Below, piece after piece: positions 21,532-35,448 of a DNA stretch of 64,000 bases. A model generated the notes under the pieces. It was not told the origin of the DNA. It was given only the letters and a program-made list of their open reading frames with translations, and ran no database searches. The position numbers and the translations under genes are program-made. The DNA is from Myxococcales bacterium. Its GTDB lineage: Bacteria; Myxococcota_A; Polyangia; Haliangiales; Haliangiaceae. The stretch spans positions 1-64,000 of the forward strand of contig JAEUJY010000051.1 of assembly GCA_016794525.1 (NCBI GenBank), written 5' to 3'. Every line of letters begins with the position of its first letter. Position 1 is the first letter of the stretch.

Positions 21532-22644
21532 TCATCGGCAGGTCCACGCGTGGACCAGCTCCGGCTGCGCGCCCTCGCGGCGATAGGCGATGTGGATCTC
21601 GGCACCGTGGGTGGCGATCCCCGCCGACAGGCCTGCGTCGCCCACCGCATCGATGGGCTCCGACGTGAGCTGGCCGCCACGCACGGTGCCGAGACGGAGC
21701 TCGCGGCCAGCGGTCGCCCGATACAGCACCGCGAAGGAGCCGTCCCGGAGCGTGGCGACGTCGTGGACGTAGTCGACGACCACGCCAGTGGGATAATGCG
21801 TCCAGGTGCCTCCTGTGTACAACGAGTAGCCCAGCTCGCCGGATGGCTCTCGGGTGTACGCCAGCAGGACGTCGTCGTTCGGCGCCCGACCCAGGTTCGC
21901 GAACGCACCATCGAAGGGCAGGGGGATGGGCGAAAACGCTCCGGACGCATCCGAAGCGACCATCACGGCCGGCGGTGACAATCGACGGTAGGCAACCGTG
22001 GTCTTGCCTGGCGGGCTGTCGATCACTGCCACGTCGCCGATCACGTCGGTTCCATCCACTGTCGTGACCTGCCAAGTCGTCGAGGCGCGGATGGCGAGGC
22101 GTACGCCGGCGGTGATGGTCCGATCGTAGGCGACCCGCACCACGCCGTCGCGGCCGACGACCATATCGAGCGACGTTGCGCCAGGTGTGTTGGTCTCGAT
22201 CGGTGTGCTCATCCACGTCGGCGTGGCACGGGTGGCGAACCATACGTCGCGGCCCCGTCGGTCGAGGTGCGCGACGTCGACGTGACCGACGGAGTCCACG
22301 ACGATCGCTGGGTCGGGTAGGCCCGGGTCCGTCAGCGTCGCAACGGTCTCGCTGGACCACGTACCGCTCACATTGGTCGTGTAGACGATGGTGGCGGTGC
22401 CCCGGTCGTAGCGCGCGATGTGGATGCCGCCGCTCGCGTCGATGGTGATCGCGTTCTGTACGCTGACATCGCCTGTGGCCAGGACCTCGCGGCGCCAGGA
22501 GGCGTCGCAGCCAGCATCCACCGCAGTGTCGGGGGGGACGGTATCGACGGCGCCGTCGATCAGCGTCTCGCCCGATCCGCTGCACGCGAGCGACGCGATG
22601 AGCGCCAGGAGCGAACACCGGTGGAGGTTGAGCGGCGCGGTCAT
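21532..22644 (-). CDS. Propeller-like lipoprotein, last gene of the giant operon
   Basis: This 370-residue protein has a lipoprotein signal (SLLALIASLACSGSG, lipobox SLAC). The body contains about seven repeats of roughly 50 residues ending in phrases such as GGIHIARYDRGTATIVYTT, GHVDVAHLDRRGRDVWFAT, GVVRVAYDRTITAGVRLAI and AEIHIAYRREGAQPELVH, the pattern of a sialidase-like or YVTN-like beta propeller. It should sit at the outer surface. It overlaps the phospholipase D-family gene by four bases (22641-22644, ATGA), so it is translated with it. It is the only exported member of the operon and might be its receptor or anchor; that role is inferred. The second copy of the 29-base repeat lies inside its coding region. 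Confidence 0.75.
   Translation of the reverse strand: MTAPLNLHRCSLLALIASLACSGSGETLIDGAVDTVPPDTAVDAGCDASWRREVLATGDVSVQNAITIDASGGIHIARYDRGTATIVYTTNVSGTWSSETVATLTDPGLPDPAIVVDSVGHVDVAHLDRRGRDVWFATRATPTWMSTPIETNTPGATSLDMVVGRDGVVRVAYDRTITAGVRLAIRASTTWQVTTVDGTDVIGDVAVIDSPPGKTTVAYRRLSPPAVMVASDASGAFSPIPLPFDGAFANLGRAPNDDVLLAYTREPSGELGYSLYTGGTWTHYPTGVVVDYVHDVATLRDGSFAVLYRATAGRELRLGTVRGGQLTSEPIDAVGDAGLSAGIATHGAEIHIAYRREGAQPELVHAWTCR
21923..21951 (+). repeat. 29-base direct repeat, copy 2
   Basis: This is the second copy of the element at 17636-17664 (27 of 29 bases identical, same orientation). It lies within the propeller lipoprotein gene on the opposite strand, where it encodes part of AFSPIPLP. One intergenic and one coding copy 4.3 kb apart suggest either mobility/duplication or a shared binding site. 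Confidence 0.6.
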
Positions 22645-25600
22645 GGTGGGGTAAAGGTAAGTGTGACCGTGGTCACCAGGCTGGTCGGCGTCACGTCGAC
22701 CTGAGACCTCGCTAGCACCGTGCCCGGCGCCGATGCAAGGAATACTTCCCCCGTGACCCGCCATGATCGAGCCGCGTCCACCAGGCCGAGGCTCGCGGCC
22801 TGGTCGGCCTCGAGAGGACCGACGGTGCGCAGCGGCGGCGTCGCGCCTTCGGCGAGGTCGACCTGCCACAGGTATCGCTCCGCGCCTGGCAACGCCGGCA
22901 GCGCCGACAGGTCTGCGGTGGCTCGCACCGCCGCCAGTCCGCCGAGCGTGGTCGGATCCGCCGCGGCGGTGAGGTGTTGCCTCAGCGCCATGAAGTCGAC
23001 CAGGCGGAGCTCATGCGAGCTGCGCCCATCCGGGTCCATGCCGGCGGCCAGCGCGTCGGGCAGGTAGGCATCGAAGTCGGGCGGCTGGGTGCCGTACTGG
23101 GTCGTCAGCGGGTCGTACGCCATCAGACCACTGCGCACCCACGGTCGCTGTCCCGCCAGGGTCGCCTTGAGTAGCCGGAACGCATCGGCCGGGTCTTCGA
23201 GCAGGCCGCGCTCCTCGGGCAACACCCGCAGATGCTCGGCCATCAACGCCACCCGCAGCTCGTGAGCAAACCGATGCCGCCCGTTGCGCAGGCGCGTGTC
23301 GATGGTGGCGGCGGTGATCTCCGAGTCGAGCGTGGCCGACCGCCGGCTCATGTTGGCCGAGCCGATCGACGCCCACAGGTCGTCGACCAGCACGGTCTTG
23401 GCGTGGACATAGACCGGGGTCCCGTCCTCGTTGATGGGGTGGGCGAACACCACGCGGTCGCCGGTGTAGTCCGGCAGCGTGGTCCCGTCCTCGCCGGGCG
23501 CCAGGACCTCCTTGCCGTACAGGATCAGGTTGATGCAGCGACGCCGGATCGCATAGAGCACCAGATCGAGCACCGGAAACTCGGCGAGCTGGCGCGGCAG
23601 GATGAACACCACCCACTCCAGGGCATCGGGTCCGAGGAGCCGGGCCCGGATCCGCTGCGCCAGCTCGGGGTTCCACAGGTACTGTTCCTCGCAGTACAGG
23701 AAGCGTCGCGCTTGCTCGATCGCCCGGAAGGTCGACTGGATGGCCGACAGGTCGCCGCGATCGGTCTGCACGATGGCGGTGTACTCGGGGATGTGGGGCG
23801 CCAGGGTGCGATTGATCTGCACGGTGTGGGGGCCGTCGTTCACCGCCGACAGGATCTGGGTCGCGGTCGGCGGCGGTAGTGGCGTGGCATGGGCCGGCAC
23901 CGGGTGGCGGCTCGGGTGCGCCACCGCCGCGTTCCACCGCTCCTGAAAGTTGCGGTAGACGTCCCACGCGGCGCGACCGCGGACCTGGCAGTGGATGTCG
24001 TGCCACAGGCCGGTCGGTCGATCGGGGTTGGGATCGGGGTGGGTCGGCTCGTCGAAGCGCCCGATGTTGAGATCGATGCCCCCGACGAATGCCATCGGCC
24101 CGCTCGGCGACTCGACGAAGGTCGACTTTTGATGATGGACCCCGGTCTCGCGAGTGAGCTCATCGACGATGGCCTGGCCGCGGCGACCGTCGACCTCGGC
24201 GTTGACGAGGGCCGCCATCCCCAGGCTGTGTCGCACCAGCGCTCCGGCGTCGGGCTCGAACTTGTCGCGCCACGGCAACCACCGCACATCGACGCCGCGC
24301 CGGATGCTCTCTCGGATCAGGCCGCCGATCTCCTTGGGGTGCATCGGCACCAGGCCGCTGGCGAGCTGGCCATCGGCGGCGCGGATCTCGAAGAAGCCAT
24401 CGCACGCCGCGAGATCGCGCGCCCCGGCGGCGGCGACCCCGACCGCGAAGCCATCGTCGCGGGCAACATTGTTGACCGTCACCGACCTGGCCGCGCTGGT
24501 TTCTGCATCCTCCCACTGCACCGCGCTGGTGCGCGTGTTGACGATCGCGATCGCCGACGGCGGGCTGGTCACGAAGCCTGACGGGAACTGCAGTTCGGCC
24601 TGCCCCGGGGTGCCGTTCCACAACAGCCGCACGGTGGCCGCCGGGTTGGCGCGCAGCGGTGGCGGCGGCGACATGCCACCAGGCGCCGCTGGCAAGGTCA
24701 AGCGACCATATCCGTGGACGTGCAGCGCGCCTCGACCCGCGGTCGCGGTGTCCTGGGGATCGGGATCATCCTGCGCCGGTGACCACCACACCGCGCGGCA
24801 CTCGACCTCGCCAGCCCAGTCGGGGTCGTGCACCGCGCGCAGCAGGCACTGGCCGCCAGGGCCTACGAACGCGCCGAAGCGCCGTGGCGTGGACGGCTCG
24901 GTGACCCGGCCGAACAGGTCGGCCCCGGCATCGTCCCCGACGATGCGTGGATCGTCGCCGCGAAACACTGTCGAGAACTCGAGCTGGGTCAAGGTCACGT
25001 ACATGCCCGGCGAAAAGGTTCCGGCCGGAAACAGCACCCAGTAGAATCGCTGGTCATCGACATCGTCGTCGTCGAGGTCGATGAGCGGATCACCCGGGAG
25101 CGGCTCGGGATCACCGGGCGGCCGCGGCAGCCGGCTCTGCTGGTGACACGGCAGCGCGCGCCAGATCGCGGTCACGTCCTTGGGTAGGACCACCGGCGCC
25201 TGCATGCGCGGGACCTCCAGCATCGCGCGTCGGCCGAGGACCGGCACATCGGCGGCGACCCAGGCATTGATGCCGAGGACCTTCGCCCCGGCGTTGGCCG
25301 CCGGGTCGCGCAGGACCCCCGACGGCATGGCGTCGTCGCGATCGTAAGTCTCGTCGACGTAGGTGGCGCGGATGGCTCGGTAGAGCGCCCGGAACGCGGC
25401 GCGCGCGTCGACCAGCGCGTCGACGTGGTTGCCCTCGGAGTAGCGCTGGAGCTGGTTCTGCGGGTTGGGGTTGCGCGGCAGCCAGCGCGCGTAGTCGATG
25501 ACGCGCAGCCGGAAGAAGCTCCAGCGGGAGAATCCGAGTCGGGTCGTCGCTGCGAGCACACCGTGCGGGTGTGGCGCCAGGCGCACATGCTCGCCCGGGA

Positions 25601-26618
25601 TCACCACCTCGACGAGCTGCGAGGTGAGCGCGCTGTGCTCGCTGGTGCCCTGGGCGAACGACACCACCCCGTGGGTGGGGATCGCGACCTCGATGTTGGC
25701 AGACGGCACCAGCAGCAGGCGCTCCGGTGCCGGCGATGGCGGCTCGGGTGGCGGTGGCGCCGGATCGTTGTCGAGCCATGGCTCGTACGGCGTACCGACG
25801 TGGTCGCTCAGCACCAGGGTGTGGCGCGGTGGCGTGGCCGATACCCAGTTCGTCGACCACGCCGCGACCGTGGATGCATCGGGGCGCGCGAGACGGCCGA
25901 AGTTACCGGCCGCCAGGCGCGCGAGCTGTGCGAAGACAAAGACCGGGTCGAGGGGCAGGCCGGCGACATCGAACATGCGGATGCGCACCGTGCTTCCCAT
26001 CGGCAGGTCGCCCAGGCTCTGGTGGCATGCGACATAGAGTTTCTCGAGTCCCGACTGGAAGTTGCCGAGGGATGGCGCCGGCACCGGGAGTCCAGCGAAC
26101 TGGCTGGTAGCGATCGCGGTGGTAGCCGCCGCGAGAGACGTTGGGCCGATCCCGCGAACGATGAGCCAGCGAGGGACCGGCATGTGCGGCGCCAGGTCGG
26201 TCGCCGTTGGCGTCGGCCCGCTGAAGTCCAGCGCGGCCCAGAGATACTCGAGTCGTCGGCACGCCCCGCCGGTGACCTCGAGCACCAGATCGTTGGTCTG
26301 CAGGCGATCGTTATCCAGACTCACGCGACGCCCAGACGTGTCGCGTAGCGCAGGCAGCCTGTCGATGAAGGCTCGGCGTTGGTCAGCCGACAGCGTCGCG
26401 ATATCAGGAACCCGCGTTGCGAAGCAGTTGAACGGCGCGCGCAGCGAGTCGCTGGCCGTGGTGCTTAGGACGAACTCGCCCCCGACACTGCCCGGATCCG
26501 CAGGTGACGACTGGTGAAACTCTCGAGCCACGTTGTGGACGTGCTCGAACATCTGCCCGAACAGCGGCGCTCCGGGGCCGCTGGCCAGCCAGATCTGCAG
26601 GTCGTCGATCAAGCTCAT
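22641..26618 (-). CDS. Giant phospholipase D-family protein (two HKD motifs)
   Basis: This 1325-residue protein has no signal peptide (MSLIDDLQIWLASGPGAPLF). The first 750 residues are an unrecognised mixed alpha/beta region with a Pro-rich linker near residue 290. The last half is a PLD fold. HKD motif 1 is HHQKSTFVE (His829, Lys831) followed by FVGGIDLNIGRFD; the usual Asp is Glu836. HKD motif 2 is HAKTVLVDD (His1072, Lys1074, Asp1079) followed by IGSANMSRRS. This arrangement resembles eukaryotic-type PLDs (GGIDL and IGSAN) and predicts transfer or hydrolysis of phosphatidyl groups or another phosphodiester. It is coupled by ATGA overlaps to the genes on both sides. Delivery outside the cell, if any, would need a dedicated system not visible here. 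Confidence 0.85.
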   Translation of the reverse strand: MSLIDDLQIWLASGPGAPLFGQMFEHVHNVAREFHQSSPADPGSVGGEFVLSTTASDSLRAPFNCFATRVPDIATLSADQRRAFIDRLPALRDTSGRRVSLDNDRLQTNDLVLEVTGGACRRLEYLWAALDFSGPTPTATDLAPHMPVPRWLIVRGIGPTSLAAATTAIATSQFAGLPVPAPSLGNFQSGLEKLYVACHQSLGDLPMGSTVRIRMFDVAGLPLDPVFVFAQLARLAAGNFGRLARPDASTVAAWSTNWVSATPPRHTLVLSDHVGTPYEPWLDNDPAPPPPEPPSPAPERLLLVPSANIEVAIPTHGVVSFAQGTSEHSALTSQLVEVVIPGEHVRLAPHPHGVLAATTRLGFSRWSFFRLRVIDYARWLPRNPNPQNQLQRYSEGNHVDALVDARAAFRALYRAIRATYVDETYDRDDAMPSGVLRDPAANAGAKVLGINAWVAADVPVLGRRAMLEVPRMQAPVVLPKDVTAIWRALPCHQQSRLPRPPGDPEPLPGDPLIDLDDDDVDDQRFYWVLFPAGTFSPGMYVTLTQLEFSTVFRGDDPRIVGDDAGADLFGRVTEPSTPRRFGAFVGPGGQCLLRAVHDPDWAGEVECRAVWWSPAQDDPDPQDTATAGRGALHVHGYGRLTLPAAPGGMSPPPPLRANPAATVRLLWNGTPGQAELQFPSGFVTSPPSAIAIVNTRTSAVQWEDAETSAARSVTVNNVARDDGFAVGVAAAGARDLAACDGFFEIRAADGQLASGLVPMHPKEIGGLIRESIRRGVDVRWLPWRDKFEPDAGALVRHSLGMAALVNAEVDGRRGQAIVDELTRETGVHHQKSTFVESPSGPMAFVGGIDLNIGRFDEPTHPDPNPDRPTGLWHDIHCQVRGRAAWDVYRNFQERWNAAVAHPSRHPVPAHATPLPPPTATQILSAVNDGPHTVQINRTLAPHIPEYTAIVQTDRGDLSAIQSTFRAIEQARRFLYCEEQYLWNPELAQRIRARLLGPDALEWVVFILPRQLAEFPVLDLVLYAIRRRCINLILYGKEVLAPGEDGTTLPDYTGDRVVFAHPINEDGTPVYVHAKTVLVDDLWASIGSANMSRRSATLDSEITAATIDTRLRNGRHRFAHELRVALMAEHLRVLPEERGLLEDPADAFRLLKATLAGQRPWVRSGLMAYDPLTTQYGTQPPDFDAYLPDALAAGMDPDGRSSHELRLVDFMALRQHLTAAADPTTLGGLAAVRATADLSALPALPGAERYLWQVDLAEGATPPLRTVGPLEADQAASLGLVDAARSWRVTGEVFLASAPGTVLARSQVDVTPTSLVTTVTLTFTPP

Positions 26619-29600
26619 GGCGAATCCTCGACGATGGCGCTCATCGATCGCCGACCGCGCGGGTCGACGATCTCGACGCGGTATGCCCAGCGCGCCGCCG
26701 GCGCGGGCACCAGGTCCTCGGTGGTGACCACGTAGGCTCCGGCGTCGACGACCGCGGGCAGCGCCGCGACCTCGAGTGAACCGTCGGCGCGAGTCACTGG
26801 CGTGGTCGCCGGGCTCCACCCCGGCACGCCGCGCTGGCGCCGCAGCAGCGTCACCGTGTAGTCGCGGCGCGGCAGACGCACGCGCACGCCGCGGCGGCTC
26901 GGATCCGGCGGCCGCGACACCGCCTCGACCGTCGCCGTCGCGGGCGGCTGACTCGAGGTGGCGCGCACCGTGACCGGCGACGAAGCCAGCGAGTGCACCC
27001 CGTCGGCGTTCACCGCGACCGCGCGATAGTAGTAGTCGACGTCGGCCAGCAGGTCGCTGTCGGTGAGGACCACCGCGCTGGCGCTGGCCGCGACGACGGC
27101 GCCCGGGCGCATCCGGCGCACGTCAGCGACCGCCACCGGGTCGCGCGTGCGGTACACGCGCAGCTCGGTGGCGCGACCGCTGGGGTCGGGCGCGATGCGC
27201 AGGGTCGCGCTGCGGTCACCACCGCGAGCCTCGACCACTCGCGGCGCATCCGGGACCTCGAGCAGTGGCACCGCCACGACCTCGAAGCGCAGCGGTTCCA
27301 CCGGCCACGCCGCGGCGATGCCGTGCGCCGACACCGCCAGGACGACGAACAGCGTCCAGCCGCGGTCGACGCCCCCGAGTTCGCCATCGTGGTGGGTGGC
27401 GGCGTCAACATACGGCGCCGCGTGATCGATCCGGAAGCTCGGGCGATGCTGGGTCGCGAGTCCCTGGAGCAGATCGACTCGCGCGGTGGCATCGAGCGCC
27501 TGGAAGACCGCATCATCGACCTGGCCGGCGGCCAGGAGCACCGCAGCCGGGCAGCGATACACCTGCACCGACCCGTGCGGCGGCACCACGAAGGCGATCC
27601 GCACCGAGGCCCGGCCCTGCGCATCGGCGTGGGTCGCGTAGCGCAGGGTGCCGTGCGCTGGTGGCGGCGGTGGCGGCGCCAGATCAGCCCGCGACGCGAT
27701 GGCGCACCGGGCCAGTCGGCTGGCGTTGCCGCTGCCATCGACCGCGCGGACGGTGGCGCTGAGCTGGGCGCGGCCGCGCCCGTCGAACGGCACCACCACC
27801 GGGCCAAGCTCGATCGTGACCCGGGTGGCACCGCCGCCACCGCTGACGACATGGGCCATGGTGACCGTCGCGGTCAAGCCGGGCGGGGCGAGGGTGGCAC
27901 CGCTCGGCCACGCCACGATCAGCGGCAGGGTCGTCGCGCCCGGTGCGGTCTCGAGCCGCCCCCACAGGGTCGGATCGTCGGTGTCAGCGAAGCCGGCGGC
28001 GCCCTGGCGCAGGTGCAGCTCGAATCGGGCCAGATCGGGTGCGGCGGCCGCGGCCCCGTCGCCCCAGTCGAAGCCGACGCGTAGTCGCGCCCAGGTCGGG
28101 GCCAGCTCCGGGGCGCCGACCAGCTCGGCGGCCAGCGCCGCTGGCGCCGGCGGCGGCACCTGATCGACGACCGCCCGAGACACGTCGGCGAATGGGCTCC
28201 AGCGTCCCCACAGATCCATGCCGCTCAGGCGCCAGGTGTACGTGCCATACGCGGGCACCGATCGGTCGTGGACCGCGACCCGCCCGCTGGTGGTCGCGGC
28301 TCGCGTCGGGACCAGGGGCACCCGGCGGCCCGACTCGTCATCGTTGGCATGCAGCGCGACGTCGTCGCCAGCCGCCGATCGGCGGCGCACTGCGAACATG
28401 ACCCGGGCCTGGGCCTCGAACAGGTTGCTGTCGTTGCCGCGGCAGCTGGCGATCACCTCGGCCTCGATCGGACGAGCGCCGGGGCGAGGCAGGATCTCGA
28501 CCTGCGGATCGAGCGGTGGGGTCAGCGGCGGCCGCGCCTCCTGGGCGATGTGGGTGGCGAGCGACACGCACGCTTGTGAGTTCGAGGCCAGCCGCGCCGA
28601 GCGCTCGAGCGAGTCGAGGTGCGGCAGCGCGGCGACCAGCGCGCGCGGCGCCTCGCGCAGGCCGCCCAGGAGCTGGCGCTGGAGCCAGCGGGTCGGGAAG
28701 CCGGCATCGACGGCGTAGTCCCACGGCGACGCGTCGGTCGCAGCGTCGGTGGTCATGAGCCCCAGGAGGCGGGCCACGCATGGATCGAGCGCGGCGCTGC
28801 GCAGCACGTCGTAGGGCGACAGCCGGATGGTGCCGCCGCCGAGGTCGTCGTCGGCGGGCACGGTCGCGATGGCGTCGTCGTAGACGAACATGGCCTGCGG
28901 CTCGCTGGCCGCCAGCTCGTGGTCGAGGAAGCCCTTCATGGCCGCGTGCATGCGCTGGTAGCCGACACCGAGATAGCGCTGGGACAGGTCGGCCGCGATC
29001 TCGGCCGGCGGCGCCGGCGGTGGCGGCATCGCCGCGGTATCCCACGGGGCCAGCGCGCGTGGCGGCGCTGCGAACAGACGGTTCTTGGCCACCTCTTCGC
29101 CGCCCTGTGCGGTCCACGTCGGGTAGATCGCCGGTTGATCGGTGAGCGGCAGATAGAAGCGATCGACCTCGGTCCATACCGGCGCCTGGGCGTAGGCGCG
29201 CGACGGCAGCCACTCGATGCGCGCCACCACGGCGTCGTGCCCCACCAGCTCGATGCGCTCGATGAGCCCGCCGTGCAAGAGCAACGTGTCGGCGACCCAC
29301 GGGTTGCGACGGGGCCAGGGCGGGAGCCGCAGCTCCTCGGGGCGCAGCCACGGCTCGCGGTCCCGGTACACTCGCTCGGTCACCGCCCCCAGTAGATCCT
29401 GGCGCTCGGTGCGGCGGATCGCCGACCGCAGCGTCGCAGGAACCAGGGCGTCGAGACCGCGGCCGATGGCCGCCCGATCCTGGTAGTGCCAGCTCCCGCG
29501 GCCGTTGGCGAAGGCGGTCGCGACCACACTGCCGGTCTCGACGCGGCGGAGAATCGTGAGGCGCACCCAGGCCGCGGGGTTGACCGACAGCGGCGGCGCC

Positions 29601-29992
29601 GGTGGCGTCGCCGACGGTCCCTCGAAGCCGAGGTCGAGCCACGCCGGTCGGGTGTCGAGGCGCAGGTACGGCACGCTGGCCGGCCCGGCGGCCTGGAACG
29701 CCGGTCCGCCGGCCTTGTCGACCGTGAGGCCGCTGGCGAAGCGATGGCGCACCGGGCCGATCGCCGCCTGGGTGAGTTCCTGGACGCGGCCGACGTCGCC
29801 GGCGGTGTAGATCGCCTTCCACCGCTGTGGCGTCGTCGGGCTGCCGCTGCGGCGCAGGCGGAAGCCCGAGCGTGGGAACCCTAGCCACCGGCCGAAGAAC
29901 CAGCGCAGGTGACGGCCATCGGCGATGTGACTGTCACCCTTGGTCCCCAGGCCCACGAGCTGCAGGAGCTCGGGATCGATCCAGTAGCTCAT
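26615..29992 (-). CDS. Giant protein with C-terminal fibronectin III-like domains
   Basis: This 1125-residue protein has no signal peptide (MSYWIDPELLQLVGLGTKGD). An N-terminal block has DGRHLRWFFGRWLGFPRSGF, a phrase that suggests a conserved folded module, then a long beta-rich region with many Trp and Pro. The last 500 residues look like consecutive FN3 modules (TYTWRLSGMDLWGRWSPF, PPPAPAALAAEL, VPDAPRVVEARGGDRSATL, DVDYYYRAVAVNADGVHS), which usually bind proteins or sugars. No catalytic motif is visible. ATG at 29990-29992 overlaps the stop of the upstream giant gene, and its own stop overlaps the PLD gene start. I infer a structural or adaptor part of the operon product. Confidence 0.75.
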   Translation of the reverse strand: MSYWIDPELLQLVGLGTKGDSHIADGRHLRWFFGRWLGFPRSGFRLRRSGSPTTPQRWKAIYTAGDVGRVQELTQAAIGPVRHRFASGLTVDKAGGPAFQAAGPASVPYLRLDTRPAWLDLGFEGPSATPPAPPLSVNPAAWVRLTILRRVETGSVVATAFANGRGSWHYQDRAAIGRGLDALVPATLRSAIRRTERQDLLGAVTERVYRDREPWLRPEELRLPPWPRRNPWVADTLLLHGGLIERIELVGHDAVVARIEWLPSRAYAQAPVWTEVDRFYLPLTDQPAIYPTWTAQGGEEVAKNRLFAAPPRALAPWDTAAMPPPPAPPAEIAADLSQRYLGVGYQRMHAAMKGFLDHELAASEPQAMFVYDDAIATVPADDDLGGGTIRLSPYDVLRSAALDPCVARLLGLMTTDAATDASPWDYAVDAGFPTRWLQRQLLGGLREAPRALVAALPHLDSLERSARLASNSQACVSLATHIAQEARPPLTPPLDPQVEILPRPGARPIEAEVIASCRGNDSNLFEAQARVMFAVRRRSAAGDDVALHANDDESGRRVPLVPTRAATTSGRVAVHDRSVPAYGTYTWRLSGMDLWGRWSPFADVSRAVVDQVPPPAPAALAAELVGAPELAPTWARLRVGFDWGDGAAAAAPDLARFELHLRQGAAGFADTDDPTLWGRLETAPGATTLPLIVAWPSGATLAPPGLTATVTMAHVVSGGGGATRVTIELGPVVVPFDGRGRAQLSATVRAVDGSGNASRLARCAIASRADLAPPPPPPAHGTLRYATHADAQGRASVRIAFVVPPHGSVQVYRCPAAVLLAAGQVDDAVFQALDATARVDLLQGLATQHRPSFRIDHAAPYVDAATHHDGELGGVDRGWTLFVVLAVSAHGIAAAWPVEPLRFEVVAVPLLEVPDAPRVVEARGGDRSATLRIAPDPSGRATELRVYRTRDPVAVADVRRMRPGAVVAASASAVVLTDSDLLADVDYYYRAVAVNADGVHSLASSPVTVRATSSQPPATATVEAVSRPPDPSRRGVRVRLPRRDYTVTLLRRQRGVPGWSPATTPVTRADGSLEVAALPAVVDAGAYVVTTEDLVPAPAARWAYRVEIVDPRGRRSMSAIVEDSP

Positions 29993-32900
29993 GGCGGCAG
30001 CTCCTCGGCCAGCACCGCCGGGGCGGTGGAAACCACGAGCGTCATCGTCGCCGACTCGGCGCCGTCGGACACCGTCAGGACCAGCGGCCCCACGGGCGCG
30101 ACGCTGACACCGGTGCCGGCCGTGAACAGCACCAGCGCCCGGCTGCGCGACAGCGCGGCGACGATCGTGATGGTCACGCCGCCGACCGCCGACGCAGCCG
30201 CGAGCTGCACGCCGTCGCGGAGCACGGGCTCGGGGCCATCGATCAGCAGGGCGATCACCGACCACGGTGCCCCGGCGCTGCTGCCCCGGTTCCACACGCG
30301 CACGATCTCCGGCTCGCGCGCCGGCGGTCGCGGCGGTAGCTCGAGCCGCTCGAGCAGCGCGGCGACGGCGGCATCGCTCACCTGCGGGACGGCCGGTCCC
30401 AGGGTGGCGACTTCGAGCGGTCGCTCCAGCAGCTCGTCGACGACCTGGTGCGCCGCCAGGTGGGCCGCGAGCGACGGCCAGCGCGAGGTGCGAAAGTGAA
30501 ACGTGTGCAAGCTCGGCAGGCTGGCCCAGTCGACGGTGGCCAGGTCGACGCTGCCGGTCGGATCGGGCACCGGTATCAGATCGCCGCGGTAGCCAGTGCC
30601 CAGCTCGAGCAGCGAGCCGAAGTGGGCGACACCGACGGCCCACAGCGACGCCACCCCCGGGTCGGTACAGCCGGTGCCGAGGACGACGTCGCGCCACAGC
30701 TCCTGGTACTCGGGCAGCTCGGCGCCATGGTCGGCCAGGAAGGCCAGGCGGTCGAACAGGTCCTGGCCGCGGTCATCGACCAGGCGCAGCACCAGGCGCC
30801 TGCCGAACTTGCGGTAGCGAGCGTCGGTGCGCGGGTCGAGGAAGTGCAGCGTGACGCCACGGTCGCGGTAGTGAGCCGGAGCGCCGTCGGCGGGCGTGGT
30901 GTCGACCTCCCAGGCCCCGGCATCGACGGCCTGGGCCCGAGTGCGCAGACGTTCGAGTGGTGGCTGATCAGCGGCCACGGTGCGGAAGCGGAAGCTGCGG
31001 ACCTCGGTGCCACCGACCGTCTCTTGGTTGCCGTGGACCTGAGACCAGCGGACGCGGGCGTCGAGCACGTAGGTGGTCCCCGGCTCGAGCAGCAAGGCGT
31101 CCGAGGTCGCGGCGTTATCGGCCAGGAGATCCGACCAGAGCTGCGACCACGCGCCGGCGGTCGCCAGGCTGTCCTGCCAGTCGCGCACGTGGTCTTCGTA
31201 CGTGAGGCACGCTTCGTAGATCTCGGACAGCGGTCGCAGCGGGGCCCCGTCCGGGAGCTGCTGCAGTGCCGCCATCTCGACGCGGGTCGACGGCACGGAG
31301 CAAACGAAGCGGACATCGTCGTAGCGATCGAGCACGTTGCCGACCACGACACCGCTGGCGTCCTCGAGCACGAGCGTGTCGCCATCGAAGAAGCGCGCGA
31401 TGACGCGGGCCCGTCGACCGTCGCGGTACGCCGACACCACCGCGCGGTGGGCCCGTCGCCAGTCCATTCGTAGCGAGGCCGACAGGATCGGTTCGGTCGC
31501 GGCGCCGGGCAGCGTCAGGCCGTAGGTGGTGGGCAGCAGGACGCCGCGCAGCAACTCCGGGGCCAGTCCTCCGCGCACGCAACCGGTGGCATCGCGCGCG
31601 AGCAGGCGTCGCAGGGTCTCGGCGCCCTCCGGAGCCGGGATGCAGCGGAGCGTCACCGGCGGATCGCCGGCGACTGCGATCCCATTCGGCAGCTCGCCGC
31701 CAGGGAGGCCGTCGAGCCGATAACACACCGGGCGCGGGCGGTCACCAGGGCAAGGATCGAAGGTCTCGGCGATGGAGCGGATGTAGTCGGCGGTTCCGCC
31801 GACGTACCGCGAGGTGAGCGGTCCATCGTAGGCGAAGAGCTGCAGGGTCTTGCGCGACCGCTGGCCTCCGGGCCCGGGTTCGCCAGTGTCGAACCAGAGC
31901 GCCGGCACGCCGGGCGTCACCGGGACCCGTGTGCCGTCGGGCTGCTCGACGGCGAGGGCCAGCTCGACGAGCTCGAAGGCGTAGCCCTTGTCGTCGCTCA
32001 TCGGCCAGTGGACCTGGGTGTCCACACCGTCGAGGTGGAAGGCGCCGACGGTGCCGGTGGCGTTGCGCGTCGGATAGGTGAAGGTCAGCGTGAACGCTGG
32101 ATCGATCGGGACCTCCGCCAGCGTCTGGCCCTCGACCACCTCGACCGGGGCGTGGCGGGCGCGAGGATGCAGGGTCAGCGCCGCGCAGGTGCGCCCCGGC
32201 GCGGGCAGGAGGCCGTCCGCGCCCTTCTGATAGCGGACCACCGCGTCGATGTCGGGCAACGGCCACGGCAGGCCGATCGAGACCGACACCGCCAGATCGA
32301 AGTACTTCGGGGCCGGGGTCATCCAGATCATCGACGCGTCGAGCCCGAGCTCGAAGCCCATGCCGAAGACTTTGAGGCCGACGGCGCCGGTCAGGTGCAG
32401 GAGGCCGCCGAAGAAGGTTCCATCGGTGGCATCGCCCGCGTCACCCGAGTTGCCGATCGACCCCAGCGCCAGGTGGACCTCGAACCCGGCGCGGAAGAAC
32501 AGCTTGATGCGGCCGCTTCCGAACTGCCAGTCGAAGCCCGCGGCGCCGCCGAGGACGATGGCCGTCCCGGGAATGTCGAGCTGCGCGTGGCCGCCGAGAT
32601 CCGCGATGTCGTTGCGATCGATCATCAGGTAGAACGACCCGTCGAACTTGCCGAGGACCTTCACCAGCACGCGCTTGGCCACCGGCATGTGCTCGCCGAT
32701 GTACAGGTGCAAGGCCTTGGGCGACTTGCTCGAATAGAAGTCGATGGGGACGTGGATGCGCAGCAGCTTCCCGTCCTCGGGCTTGGCGTAGTCGATGGTG
32801 ATCGACGCGGCGTAGATGTCGTGTTCCCAGTCGAACGCCAGCACCATGCCGAAGGCCGCGGCGCGGTCGTCGGTGAGTTTCGGTCGATCGGTCAACAGGT

Positions 32901-35154
32901 TCAGCGAGCCGGGGATGATCAACACGCCCGGCGCGTAGATGATCGCGGCCTTGGCGCTCCAGGCTCGACCACCGTCCGGCGCCGAGCCGAGGATGGCCCC
33001 GAAGGCCCCGGCCCAGCCACCGGCGTGGTGGCCCCACTTGAGGGCGCTGATGCGGTTGCGCGGCGGCAGCTCGCGATACCACTGGACGTAGTCGGGATGC
33101 TCGCGATCGGTGACCGCCGGCGCGGTGTTGCGGCCGAGCAGCATCGACAGCCCGTACAGCGCGATGGTCGGTGACAGCTTCCAGCCGTCGGCGTTGGTCA
33201 CCTCCAAGGACACCGCGGTCGACGACAGCCCGTCGCGAGTCTCCTCGCGTAGCGCCACCTCGAGATCCCACAGCCAGCTCGACCGCTCGTCGGCGCTGGC
33301 GGTGTAGTCCTTGCGCAGCAGGTAGGCCCGTCCGGTCCCCAGCCGCACCGGGTCGCCCCACTCGAGCTGGCCCTTGGCGTGCAGCAGCTGCGGCACCAGC
33401 ACCGAGAACGACAGCCCCGAGAACGACACGTGATCGAAGCTGCCGTCCTGGCGGAACCACAGTCGCACCACCGAGGGCACGACCGATACCGCGACCTCGC
33501 CCATCTCGGCGTTGACCTTGACCCCGACATCGACCCAGATGCCGCCATCCCAGCTGCCGAGGCCGGCCTTGGCGATCACCAGCGGCGAGCCGGCGATGAG
33601 GGTCTGGTCGCCGACGTCGAAGCTGATCCCGCTGCTAGGGTCAAACACGATGTCGAGGGCCTTGACCCCGGCGGCCTGACCGCCGATCGACGCGCGCAGG
33701 GTCAGTCCGCGGAGCTCGAGCCCGATCGGGCGCTCGGTCTTGATCGTGGGCACGATGATCGGCGGCCCCGGCAGATCGATGTCGATCGACAGGCGCAGCC
33801 GCAGATCGAGCGCCAGGTCGATGAACCGGACCGTGTGGCCGTTCACCATCTCGGTGAAGTAGCGGCCGGTGATCTTGATGAGGTCGATCTCCTCGATCCG
33901 CAGCGCGCCGCGGGTCTGCAACACCGACGCTGCGGCCAGGAGCCCGGCCACCAGTACCTGGCCGGGTGACAGCGCCGGGTCGGTCGTGAGCCCGGTCGCG
34001 AGCAGCACCGCGCCGCACAGGCCGCCCTCGATCGCGGCGATGGCGGAGCGGCCGAGATGTAGGAGCCCGTCAGTGTCGTCCTGGGTCGACGCCACCGCGA
34101 TGTCGAAGCCCAGCGAGTCAAGGGCCGACGCCATCGCCGGGTTGTGGCGAATCGTGAACAGGAAGCGCAGCGGGTGCCACGCTGCCCAGTCGCTGTTGAG
34201 GCGGTCCCAGTGCAGGGTGGTCTCGACCGTGCCGCGGATGAACACGCTCCGCTCCAGCTCGAAGCTGAAGGCGTCGAGCGCCAGCGCCCCGAACGGCGCG
34301 TCGGGTGGCAGCCTGGCCTCGACCACACCACTCACGCCGTCGCTGTCGATGATCGCGTCATGCAGTTCGATCTGCGACGGCAACACCGGCAGTAGGTTGT
34401 CCAGCCCCAGCAGACGCGCGCGGTTCAGGTACAAGCCACGCCATGACTCGTCGAAGTTCGGCCGGCTGAGCAGTTCGGGAATACCCTGGTCGCGGGATAG
34501 GTCGACCTTGAGGTCGATCACCTGCAGGCCGATGCCGGTCTCGCCGAACACGAACGGCGGCACGTTGACCGCCGCGCTGGGATCGAGCGCTATCGAGATG
34601 CCGCGCTCGGTGTCGAACACCAGGGACCCCGATGGCAAGCTGACCTCGACCCGCCGGGGTGGCTCGAAGCGTTCGATGCCGACCACTTGCCCTGCGTCCT
34701 CGATCAGCTCGCCAAGGTGCAGGCCAGGGGGCAGACGCAGGCGAGCGGTCAGATCGTGGATCGCCAGGCGGAAGCCAAGGCATGGTCCGTCAGCCTCCCA
34801 GAACACGCGCACGGCGCCGTGCTCGCCGTCGATGACCGTCGGCTCGACGCCGAAGTACTCTTCGCCGTGACCGATGATGAGGCTGGCGATCGACAGCCTG
34901 GCGGCCGCCACCTCGAATCGGACGATGGTCTCGCCGGCGCTGCCACTGCCAAGGACCAGTCCGCCCCACTCGCCGCCGATGACCACCTCGTCGAGCACCA
35001 CCGCGTCGCCGGTTACGATGAACGTCTGATCGTTCCAGCGATCGCGGAGGTCGCGCACCCCGATGTACGGATAGACCGTACCGATGACCGGGATGTGCCT
35101 GACAAACGACGGCAACGGTAGCAACACCGACAGCGGCACGAAGTAGTCGCCCAA
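29989..35154 (-). CDS. Giant 1721-residue beta-repeat protein, first gene of the operon
   Basis: This protein has no signal peptide (MGDYFVPLSVLLPLPSFV). Residues 1-950 are an unusually long series of amphipathic beta strands with phrases such as LRLRLSIDIDLPGPPIIVPT, LTLRASIGGQAAGVKALDIVF, WVDVGVKVNAEMGEVAVSVV and HAQLDIPGTAIVLGGAAGF. The pattern is reminiscent of AsmA/TamB or bridge-like lipid-transfer grooves or of DUF6603-type proteins, but I cannot assign a family. Residues 980-1721 hold Ig/FN3-like pieces and helical inserts (YEACLTYEDHVRDWQDSL). The start is TTG at 35152-35154 with a GTGAGG ribosome site 5 bases before it. It is transcribed from the promoter at 35178-35206 and coupled by ATGA to the next gene. 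Function unknown. Confidence 0.75.
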   Translation of the reverse strand: MGDYFVPLSVLLPLPSFVRHIPVIGTVYPYIGVRDLRDRWNDQTFIVTGDAVVLDEVVIGGEWGGLVLGSGSAGETIVRFEVAAARLSIASLIIGHGEEYFGVEPTVIDGEHGAVRVFWEADGPCLGFRLAIHDLTARLRLPPGLHLGELIEDAGQVVGIERFEPPRRVEVSLPSGSLVFDTERGISIALDPSAAVNVPPFVFGETGIGLQVIDLKVDLSRDQGIPELLSRPNFDESWRGLYLNRARLLGLDNLLPVLPSQIELHDAIIDSDGVSGVVEARLPPDAPFGALALDAFSFELERSVFIRGTVETTLHWDRLNSDWAAWHPLRFLFTIRHNPAMASALDSLGFDIAVASTQDDTDGLLHLGRSAIAAIEGGLCGAVLLATGLTTDPALSPGQVLVAGLLAAASVLQTRGALRIEEIDLIKITGRYFTEMVNGHTVRFIDLALDLRLRLSIDIDLPGPPIIVPTIKTERPIGLELRGLTLRASIGGQAAGVKALDIVFDPSSGISFDVGDQTLIAGSPLVIAKAGLGSWDGGIWVDVGVKVNAEMGEVAVSVVPSVVRLWFRQDGSFDHVSFSGLSFSVLVPQLLHAKGQLEWGDPVRLGTGRAYLLRKDYTASADERSSWLWDLEVALREETRDGLSSTAVSLEVTNADGWKLSPTIALYGLSMLLGRNTAPAVTDREHPDYVQWYRELPPRNRISALKWGHHAGGWAGAFGAILGSAPDGGRAWSAKAAIIYAPGVLIIPGSLNLLTDRPKLTDDRAAAFGMVLAFDWEHDIYAASITIDYAKPEDGKLLRIHVPIDFYSSKSPKALHLYIGEHMPVAKRVLVKVLGKFDGSFYLMIDRNDIADLGGHAQLDIPGTAIVLGGAAGFDWQFGSGRIKLFFRAGFEVHLALGSIGNSGDAGDATDGTFFGGLLHLTGAVGLKVFGMGFELGLDASMIWMTPAPKYFDLAVSVSIGLPWPLPDIDAVVRYQKGADGLLPAPGRTCAALTLHPRARHAPVEVVEGQTLAEVPIDPAFTLTFTYPTRNATGTVGAFHLDGVDTQVHWPMSDDKGYAFELVELALAVEQPDGTRVPVTPGVPALWFDTGEPGPGGQRSRKTLQLFAYDGPLTSRYVGGTADYIRSIAETFDPCPGDRPRPVCYRLDGLPGGELPNGIAVAGDPPVTLRCIPAPEGAETLRRLLARDATGCVRGGLAPELLRGVLLPTTYGLTLPGAATEPILSASLRMDWRRAHRAVVSAYRDGRRARVIARFFDGDTLVLEDASGVVVGNVLDRYDDVRFVCSVPSTRVEMAALQQLPDGAPLRPLSEIYEACLTYEDHVRDWQDSLATAGAWSQLWSDLLADNAATSDALLLEPGTTYVLDARVRWSQVHGNQETVGGTEVRSFRFRTVAADQPPLERLRTRAQAVDAGAWEVDTTPADGAPAHYRDRGVTLHFLDPRTDARYRKFGRRLVLRLVDDRGQDLFDRLAFLADHGAELPEYQELWRDVVLGTGCTDPGVASLWAVGVAHFGSLLELGTGYRGDLIPVPDPTGSVDLATVDWASLPSLHTFHFRTSRWPSLAAHLAAHQVVDELLERPLEVATLGPAVPQVSDAAVAALLERLELPPRPPAREPEIVRVWNRGSSAGAPWSVIALLIDGPEPVLRDGVQLAAASAVGGVTITIVAALSRSRALVLFTAGTGVSVAPVGPLVLTVSDGAESATMTLVVSTAPAVLAEELPP

Positions 35155-35238: not shown

Positions 35239-35351
35239 ACGGCTTCGCGCGCCAGGCCCGCTCGCGTTCGGCGCATTAGCCGGCCGAATCCTGGCTCCGC
35301 GGACGCGGGGCGTGACCGCGAGGCCTCAGCTCGATTGCCGATGACAACTAG

Positions 35352-35448
35352 CGGAAGCGCACGGGAATCGAACCCGCCGTGCCGCCGCTCGCGCGGAGCA
35401 CCACCGGCTTTGAAGGCCGAGCCGCGCACCAGCCGCGGATGCGCTTCC
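35352..35448 (-). tRNA. selC: tRNA-Sec (anticodon UCA)
   Basis: The minus strand folds as a selenocysteine tRNA. It has an 8-bp acceptor stem (GGAAGCGC with GCGCTTCC, discriminator G), the anticodon loop CTTCAAA with anticodon TCA (plus-strand tga at 35411-35413), a long variable arm and the T-arm GGGTTCGATTCCC. The 97-base length and the GGAAG start and CTTCCG end match bacterial selC. CCA is not encoded. It implies that the organism inserts selenocysteine at UGA; selA, selB and selD must lie elsewhere. Its 3' end faces the giant operon, the side on which islands insert at tRNA genes. Confidence 0.93.

Follow-up and report, generated by a model that had tools for sequence, protein, structure and literature searches.

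A recurring trio of giant proteins, one with a phospholipase D domain, in an accessory operon of a Haliangiaceae bacterium

What kind of system is encoded by three very large, overlapping genes whose products resemble no described machinery? The question is raised by an operon in the window, the 64,000-nucleotide stretch of contig JAEUJY010000051.1 from a Myxococcales bacterium (Haliangiaceae) analysed here. The first-pass annotation had described four minus-strand genes joined at every junction by an ATGA overlap; all four reading frames translate as claimed, and the three overlaps can be read on the minus strand.

29989..35154, minus strand: giant 1 (P0001), 1721 aa, TTG start; translation, homologues, hhalign comparison and beta periodicity
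26615..29992, minus strand: giant 2 (P0002), 1125 aa; translation and homologues
22641..26618, minus strand: giant 3 (P0003), 1325 aa; an N-terminus of ~770 aa without known family, followed by a phospholipase D (PLD) domain
21532..22644, minus strand: lipoprotein (P0004), 370 aa, translationally coupled to giant 3
29989..29992, minus strand: ATGA overlap of giants 1 and 2, read from the sequence
26615..26618, minus strand: ATGA overlap of giants 2 and 3, read from the sequence
22641..22644, minus strand: ATGA overlap of giant 3 and the lipoprotein, read from the sequence
35351..35448, minus strand: tRNA-Sec gene neighbouring the operon, a possible island boundary from comparison with congeners

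Gene 1 starts with TTG at 35154, preceded by a plausible ribosome-binding stretch (GGAAGTGAGG), and the operon begins about 200 bases downstream of the tRNA-Sec gene. A codon-usage gene caller returned the same four genes; because its training set consisted in part of the three giants, the agreement serves as a consistency check only. The GC content of the operon, 68-75% per kb, lies below that of most of the window. The sequence downstream of the 3′ end of the tRNA-Sec gene differs in each congener inspected, which hints at a variable insertion site. Since neither an attachment repeat nor an integrase was found at the tRNA-Sec gene, the lower GC content and the differing neighbour sequence only suggest that the operon sits in an island.

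In terms of known systems, Pfam, NCBIfam, PHROGs and the PDB yield the PLD domain only, besides weak matches below cut-off, and PDB profile searches with the families gave nothing significant. Neither the four proteins nor the ten flanking proteins scanned have a Pfam match to sheath, tube, baseplate or VgrG domains, and no defence gene was recognised among the flanking genes scanned. Searches of the open literature, subscription journals and preprints excluded, turned up no paper on DUF6603 (a family taken up below) or on such a system. The initial impression that the set has no known architecture thus holds, and the module is without known functional counterpart.

The lipoprotein has a hydrophobic stretch at its N-terminus and a lipobox (LACS). 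Its proposed propeller fold was not confirmed, a single NCBIfam match falling below cut-off, and no counterpart was found in the homologous loci of other genomes. The four-gene set therefore does not stand as a unit; the conserved unit is the trio of giants.

The distribution of this trio is patchy. A search with giant 2 in the genomes of 56 relatives found it in the window genome only (1/56), which marks the operon as accessory. The wider tallies, by phylum and by class, are based on even draws rather than on full sets of genomes. The phylum draw with giant 1 returned a weak relative in one genome (G167), with a giant 2-like protein on the same contig. Plesiocystis pacifica SIR-1 (G268), reached via giant 3, encodes a giant 1 C-terminus followed by giants 2 and 3, as in the window, with overlaps of 1 bp between giants 1 and 2 and 4 bp between giants 2 and 3; giant 2 matches its P. 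pacifica counterpart with E 4e-35 over 887 columns. When the class was searched by profile, the same order came up in three genomes from a single genus of the Nannocystaceae, in which the trio is separated by gaps of 40-43 bp and 7 bp; giant 2 is fragmented in a fourth genome of that genus and is present in 5/29 Nannocystaceae genomes. Besides the genomes with the full trio, two Myxococcota genomes have giants 1 and 2 as a pair. The giants thus recur together, the outcome named as support in the neighbourhood check first proposed, and given this recurrence the gene order cannot be put down to chance; the existence of the module is well supported.

The homologous loci have no gene for secretion, immunity or regulation in common. 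As first noted for the giants of the window, neither they nor their homologues have an obvious signal peptide, nor do they have a strong membrane helix, and no autotransporter or secretion domain was found in any homologue scanned. In one genome, an HExxH-motif protein with no Pfam or profile match lies between the giant 2 and giant 1 homologues (G271, L047 12168-13244). In another, a cassette of VgrG, DUF4123/Tsi6-like and PAAR-Ntox46 genes lies ~0.75 kb upstream of the trio (G389, L064 4965-10805); it is not conserved in two relatives, and a type VI link was dropped. An M20 peptidase match (G166, L004/L006) was rejected as chance.

Relatives were also found outside the phylum. Giant 3 had no match among phage records and giant 2 none among plasmids, and scans of viral contigs gave no relatives; the plasmid relatives surfaced only when intermediate homologues served as tblastn queries. 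These located giant 1 on plasmids of Mycetohabitans (E 1e-122), a betaproteobacterial fungal symbiont, and giant 2 on pAMI4 of Paracoccus aminophilus (E 2e-23). Like the window, the Mycetohabitans loci have the three partner families adjacent and co-oriented (WP_157864648, WP_013436793, WP_013436792, whose annotation gives no function); unlike the window, their order is giant 2-like, PLD, giant 1, the PLD protein has only 509 aa and giant 1 has 2337 aa. One of these loci belongs to a conjugative plasmid and has an integrase gene downstream; another is flanked by IS genes. The Paracoccus plasmid encodes giants 1 and 2 with a 1-bp gap, and a Paracoccus homologue is annotated as "outer membrane protein". 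An Azospirillum oryzae plasmid (L098 10651-18533) carries a giant 1 homologue beside mobile-element-like genes, followed by only a weak giant 2-like fragment. In all-against-all comparisons, giant 1 of the window matches that of Mycetohabitans with E 9e-22, and giant 1 of G389 that of Paracoccus with E 1e-157. For giant 2, the direct similarity between the window and Mycetohabitans is weak (E 0.001), and the link therefore runs through a chain of intermediates (G271 vs Mycetohabitans, E 1.6e-37; G389 vs Paracoccus, E 2e-43). With its patchy distribution and several copies on plasmids, the trio looks like a mobile unit.

No Pfam family matches giant 1, and an AsmA/TamB-type profile was likewise not found. 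The long beta-strand character ascribed to it on first reading is backed by its hydrophobicity, which is strand-periodic over aa 1-1000 (z 3.2-3.4 vs shuffles) and more so in the corresponding parts of its homologues (z 6.6-6.8 vs shuffles); helical periodicity is below chance in both. An AlphaFold model of aa 1-1051 from the single sequence was unusable (mean pLDDT 32), so that the scaffold and carrier roles discussed below rest on sequence features.

Giant 2 has no family match in Pfam or NCBIfam. Its description as FN3-rich found no support, no FN3 profile matching at E<=1; its C-terminal ~200 aa were weakly modelled as all-beta (AlphaFold with two sequences, mean pLDDT 32). The family is recognisable by a short N-terminal motif, DGxHLRW, whose G, H and R are invariant in a six-member alignment (A11).

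29900..29920, minus strand: DGRHLRW signature of giant 2, N-terminal DGxHLRW motif, from alignment A11

The sequence of giant 3 contains two HxKx4D(E) motifs within a single chain, as in the HKD superfamily. Pfam PLDc scores above cut-off and PLD structures in the PDB match with E 8.5e-11, in agreement with the first-pass assignment to a two-HKD PLD family.

24111..24137, minus strand: PLD catalytic motif 1, HHQKSTFVE (aa 828), in which E replaces D
23379..23405, minus strand: PLD catalytic motif 2, HAKTVLVDD (aa 1072), Pfam PF00614 above cut-off

Giant 3 resembles the members of this superfamily (plant PLD alpha, human PLD1/2, bacterial cardiolipin synthase) in its two motifs and in its sequence match to solved PLDs. 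It differs from them in its extra N-terminus and in being encoded with two giants. Both HKD motifs are intact in the window and in Mycetohabitans and gone in 4/4 Nannocystaceae giant 3 homologues, so that catalysis is not essential there. The dN/dS of the Mycetohabitans PLD is 0.077, indicating strong purifying selection, vs ~0.25 for the giants of the same loci; in the Nannocystaceae genus, giant 3 without HKD motifs has a dN/dS of ~0.5 and the other giants ~0.36-0.46. Together with the loss of the motifs, this contrast makes the PLD seem catalytic in the Mycetohabitans lineage, and in the Nannocystaceae a domain that seems to have been kept while inactivated and faster-evolving. One giant 3 copy of G395 (L060 5561-9153) is split over two frames, through sequencing error or early decay; decay of giant 3 in part of that genus is accordingly possible.

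A wider relationship is indicated by the conserved core of giant 1. Searched directly, giant 1 has no match to PF20248 (Pfam DUF6603) at E<=10, and a giant 1 of Mycetohabitans that carries the annotation DUF6603 likewise lacks a PF20248 match in the Pfam copy searched. Profile-profile alignment by hhalign of the core with the DUF6603 regions of other Myxococcota gave a match of 97.0% (E 9.6e-11, 354 columns). We take profile similarity of this kind, combined with the missing PF20248 match, to mean that giant 1 is remotely related to DUF6603 without belonging to the family.

32155..34467, minus strand: conserved core of giant 1, aa 230-1000, from alignment A9, used for the DUF6603 comparison

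PF20248 scores above cut-off in 10/284 sampled Myxococcota genomes, including two loci of the window's own genome, at C138 and C128 only. DUF6603 genes lie mostly within operons of giants coupled by overlaps, and its ATGA junctions place the operon of the trio with this type when set against L117, L120-L124, L126, L127 and L130. The DUF6603 operons are like that of the trio in having several overlap-coupled giants and, in several cases, a hydrolase gene; they are unlike it in that their partner giants are of different families and that no PLD is found in those inspected. HMM and BLAST searches with the families of giants 1-3 had no match among the proteins of DUF6603 loci. A motif G-x-(H/T)-L-(R/H)-W is also seen at the N-terminus of giants from DUF6603 operons (L121 7632-11789, L120 1-3642, L128 7019-10060); these partner giants have no detectable overall homology to giant 2, and the G-x-H-L-R-W-like motif aligns without significance. 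In the window's genome, the C138 locus (L117 1-13722) encodes an overlap-coupled series of a PhoD-like protein, a DUF6603 giant, proteins of 925 and 1418 aa and further proteins without family, and the second DUF6603 locus, at C128 (L118 9132-14189), has a PhoD-like fragment upstream.

The hydrolases found in DUF6603 operons are of several kinds. At C138 the PhoD-like protein (Pfam E 3.5e-9) adjoins the DUF6603 gene with a 4-bp overlap. A PhoD-like protein occurs in G235 by homology (E 5e-42). G006 encodes an MBL-like protein (motif only), and motifs point to another PhoD-type gene located a few genes upstream; G259 has an EEP-family protein that narrowly exceeds the Pfam cut-off. Roughly half of the DUF6603 operons inspected showed no enzyme that could be recognised, so that an enzyme slot with interchangeable hydrolases across the wider class stands as a hypothesis.

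The reading that best accommodates these observations, and to which we give somewhat less than even weight, is a mobile module of scaffold plus hydrolase, in which giants 1 and 2 would carry and the hydrolase of giant 3 would be the payload, with phospholipid or some other phosphodiester as its possible substrate. The long, strand-rich giant 1, a distant relative of DUF6603 proteins, would be the scaffold and giant 2 its constant partner, and the two would form a carrier or holding structure. Giant 3 would bring the enzyme, in the window a phospholipase D. The variable hydrolase would be the working part, cleaving its substrate in competition, predation or defence. It is from the filling of the enzyme slot by unrelated hydrolases that we infer the roles of carrier and payload; the physical complex, its substrate, its delivery and its target are likewise parts of the predicted function. 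The earlier suggestion of a lipid-attacking complex was not established, given the four Nannocystaceae homologues without HKD motifs and the other hydrolases of the wider class.

The strongest competing explanation, to which we assign about a one-in-four chance, is a scaffold for lipid handling. Giant 1 would then bind or move lipids in the cell envelope by means of a long, amphipathic beta structure, and the PLD domain would be a subunit for lipid binding or remodelling that is able to lose catalysis. The strand-periodic amphipathicity of the giant 1 family, the partner from the PLD superfamily and the retention of the inactivated Nannocystaceae domain at a dN/dS of about 0.5 are consistent with this notion. 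However, no member has a membrane anchor or signal peptide, the AsmA/TamB-type match is missing, other operons have a PhoD, EEP or HExxH protein in place of the PLD, and a patchy, often plasmid-borne distribution speaks against housekeeping lipid transport.

Anti-phage defence, in which infection would be sensed by the giants or trigger their assembly and the enzyme, variously PLD, PhoD, EEP or MBL, would degrade nucleic acid or membrane, is unlikely. The trio shares with many defence systems its mobility, its patchy occurrence and its interchangeable hydrolases, and DISARM, a multi-gene mobile system, contains the PLD-like protein DrmC, which matches weakly. This match reaches only 14.8 bits vs a family cut-off of 133, and the other DISARM proteins (helicase, methyltransferase) were not recognised in the operon. 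Neither a helicase or ATPase nor any other sensor could be recognised in the trio, and its scanned surroundings are free of recognised defence genes. The proteins might also form a giant adhesion complex, secreted or on the cell surface, that is inherited as one operon and has the PLD for an accessory domain. This would fit the very long beta-rich proteins, the lipoprotein coupled to the trio in the window and the annotation of the Paracoccus homologue, but is the least probable reading, the lipoprotein not being conserved and signal peptides, autotransporter and secretion domains being absent from all homologues.

Returning to the module of scaffold plus hydrolase, it is conceivable, at somewhat lower confidence than that module, that the trio and the DUF6603-like giant operons belong to one large class of bacterial machines, mobile and so far undescribed, whose giant beta proteins would carry an interchangeable hydrolase (PLD, PhoD, EEP, MBL-fold or HExxH) to a membrane or competitor cell. 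The trio comprises several thousand co-inherited, conserved residues without assigned function, spread across two phyla, and remote homology links it to the seemingly unstudied DUF6603 operons. The pattern of swapped hydrolases offers a concrete hypothesis that can be tested on an entire class of giant genes now annotated as "hypothetical".
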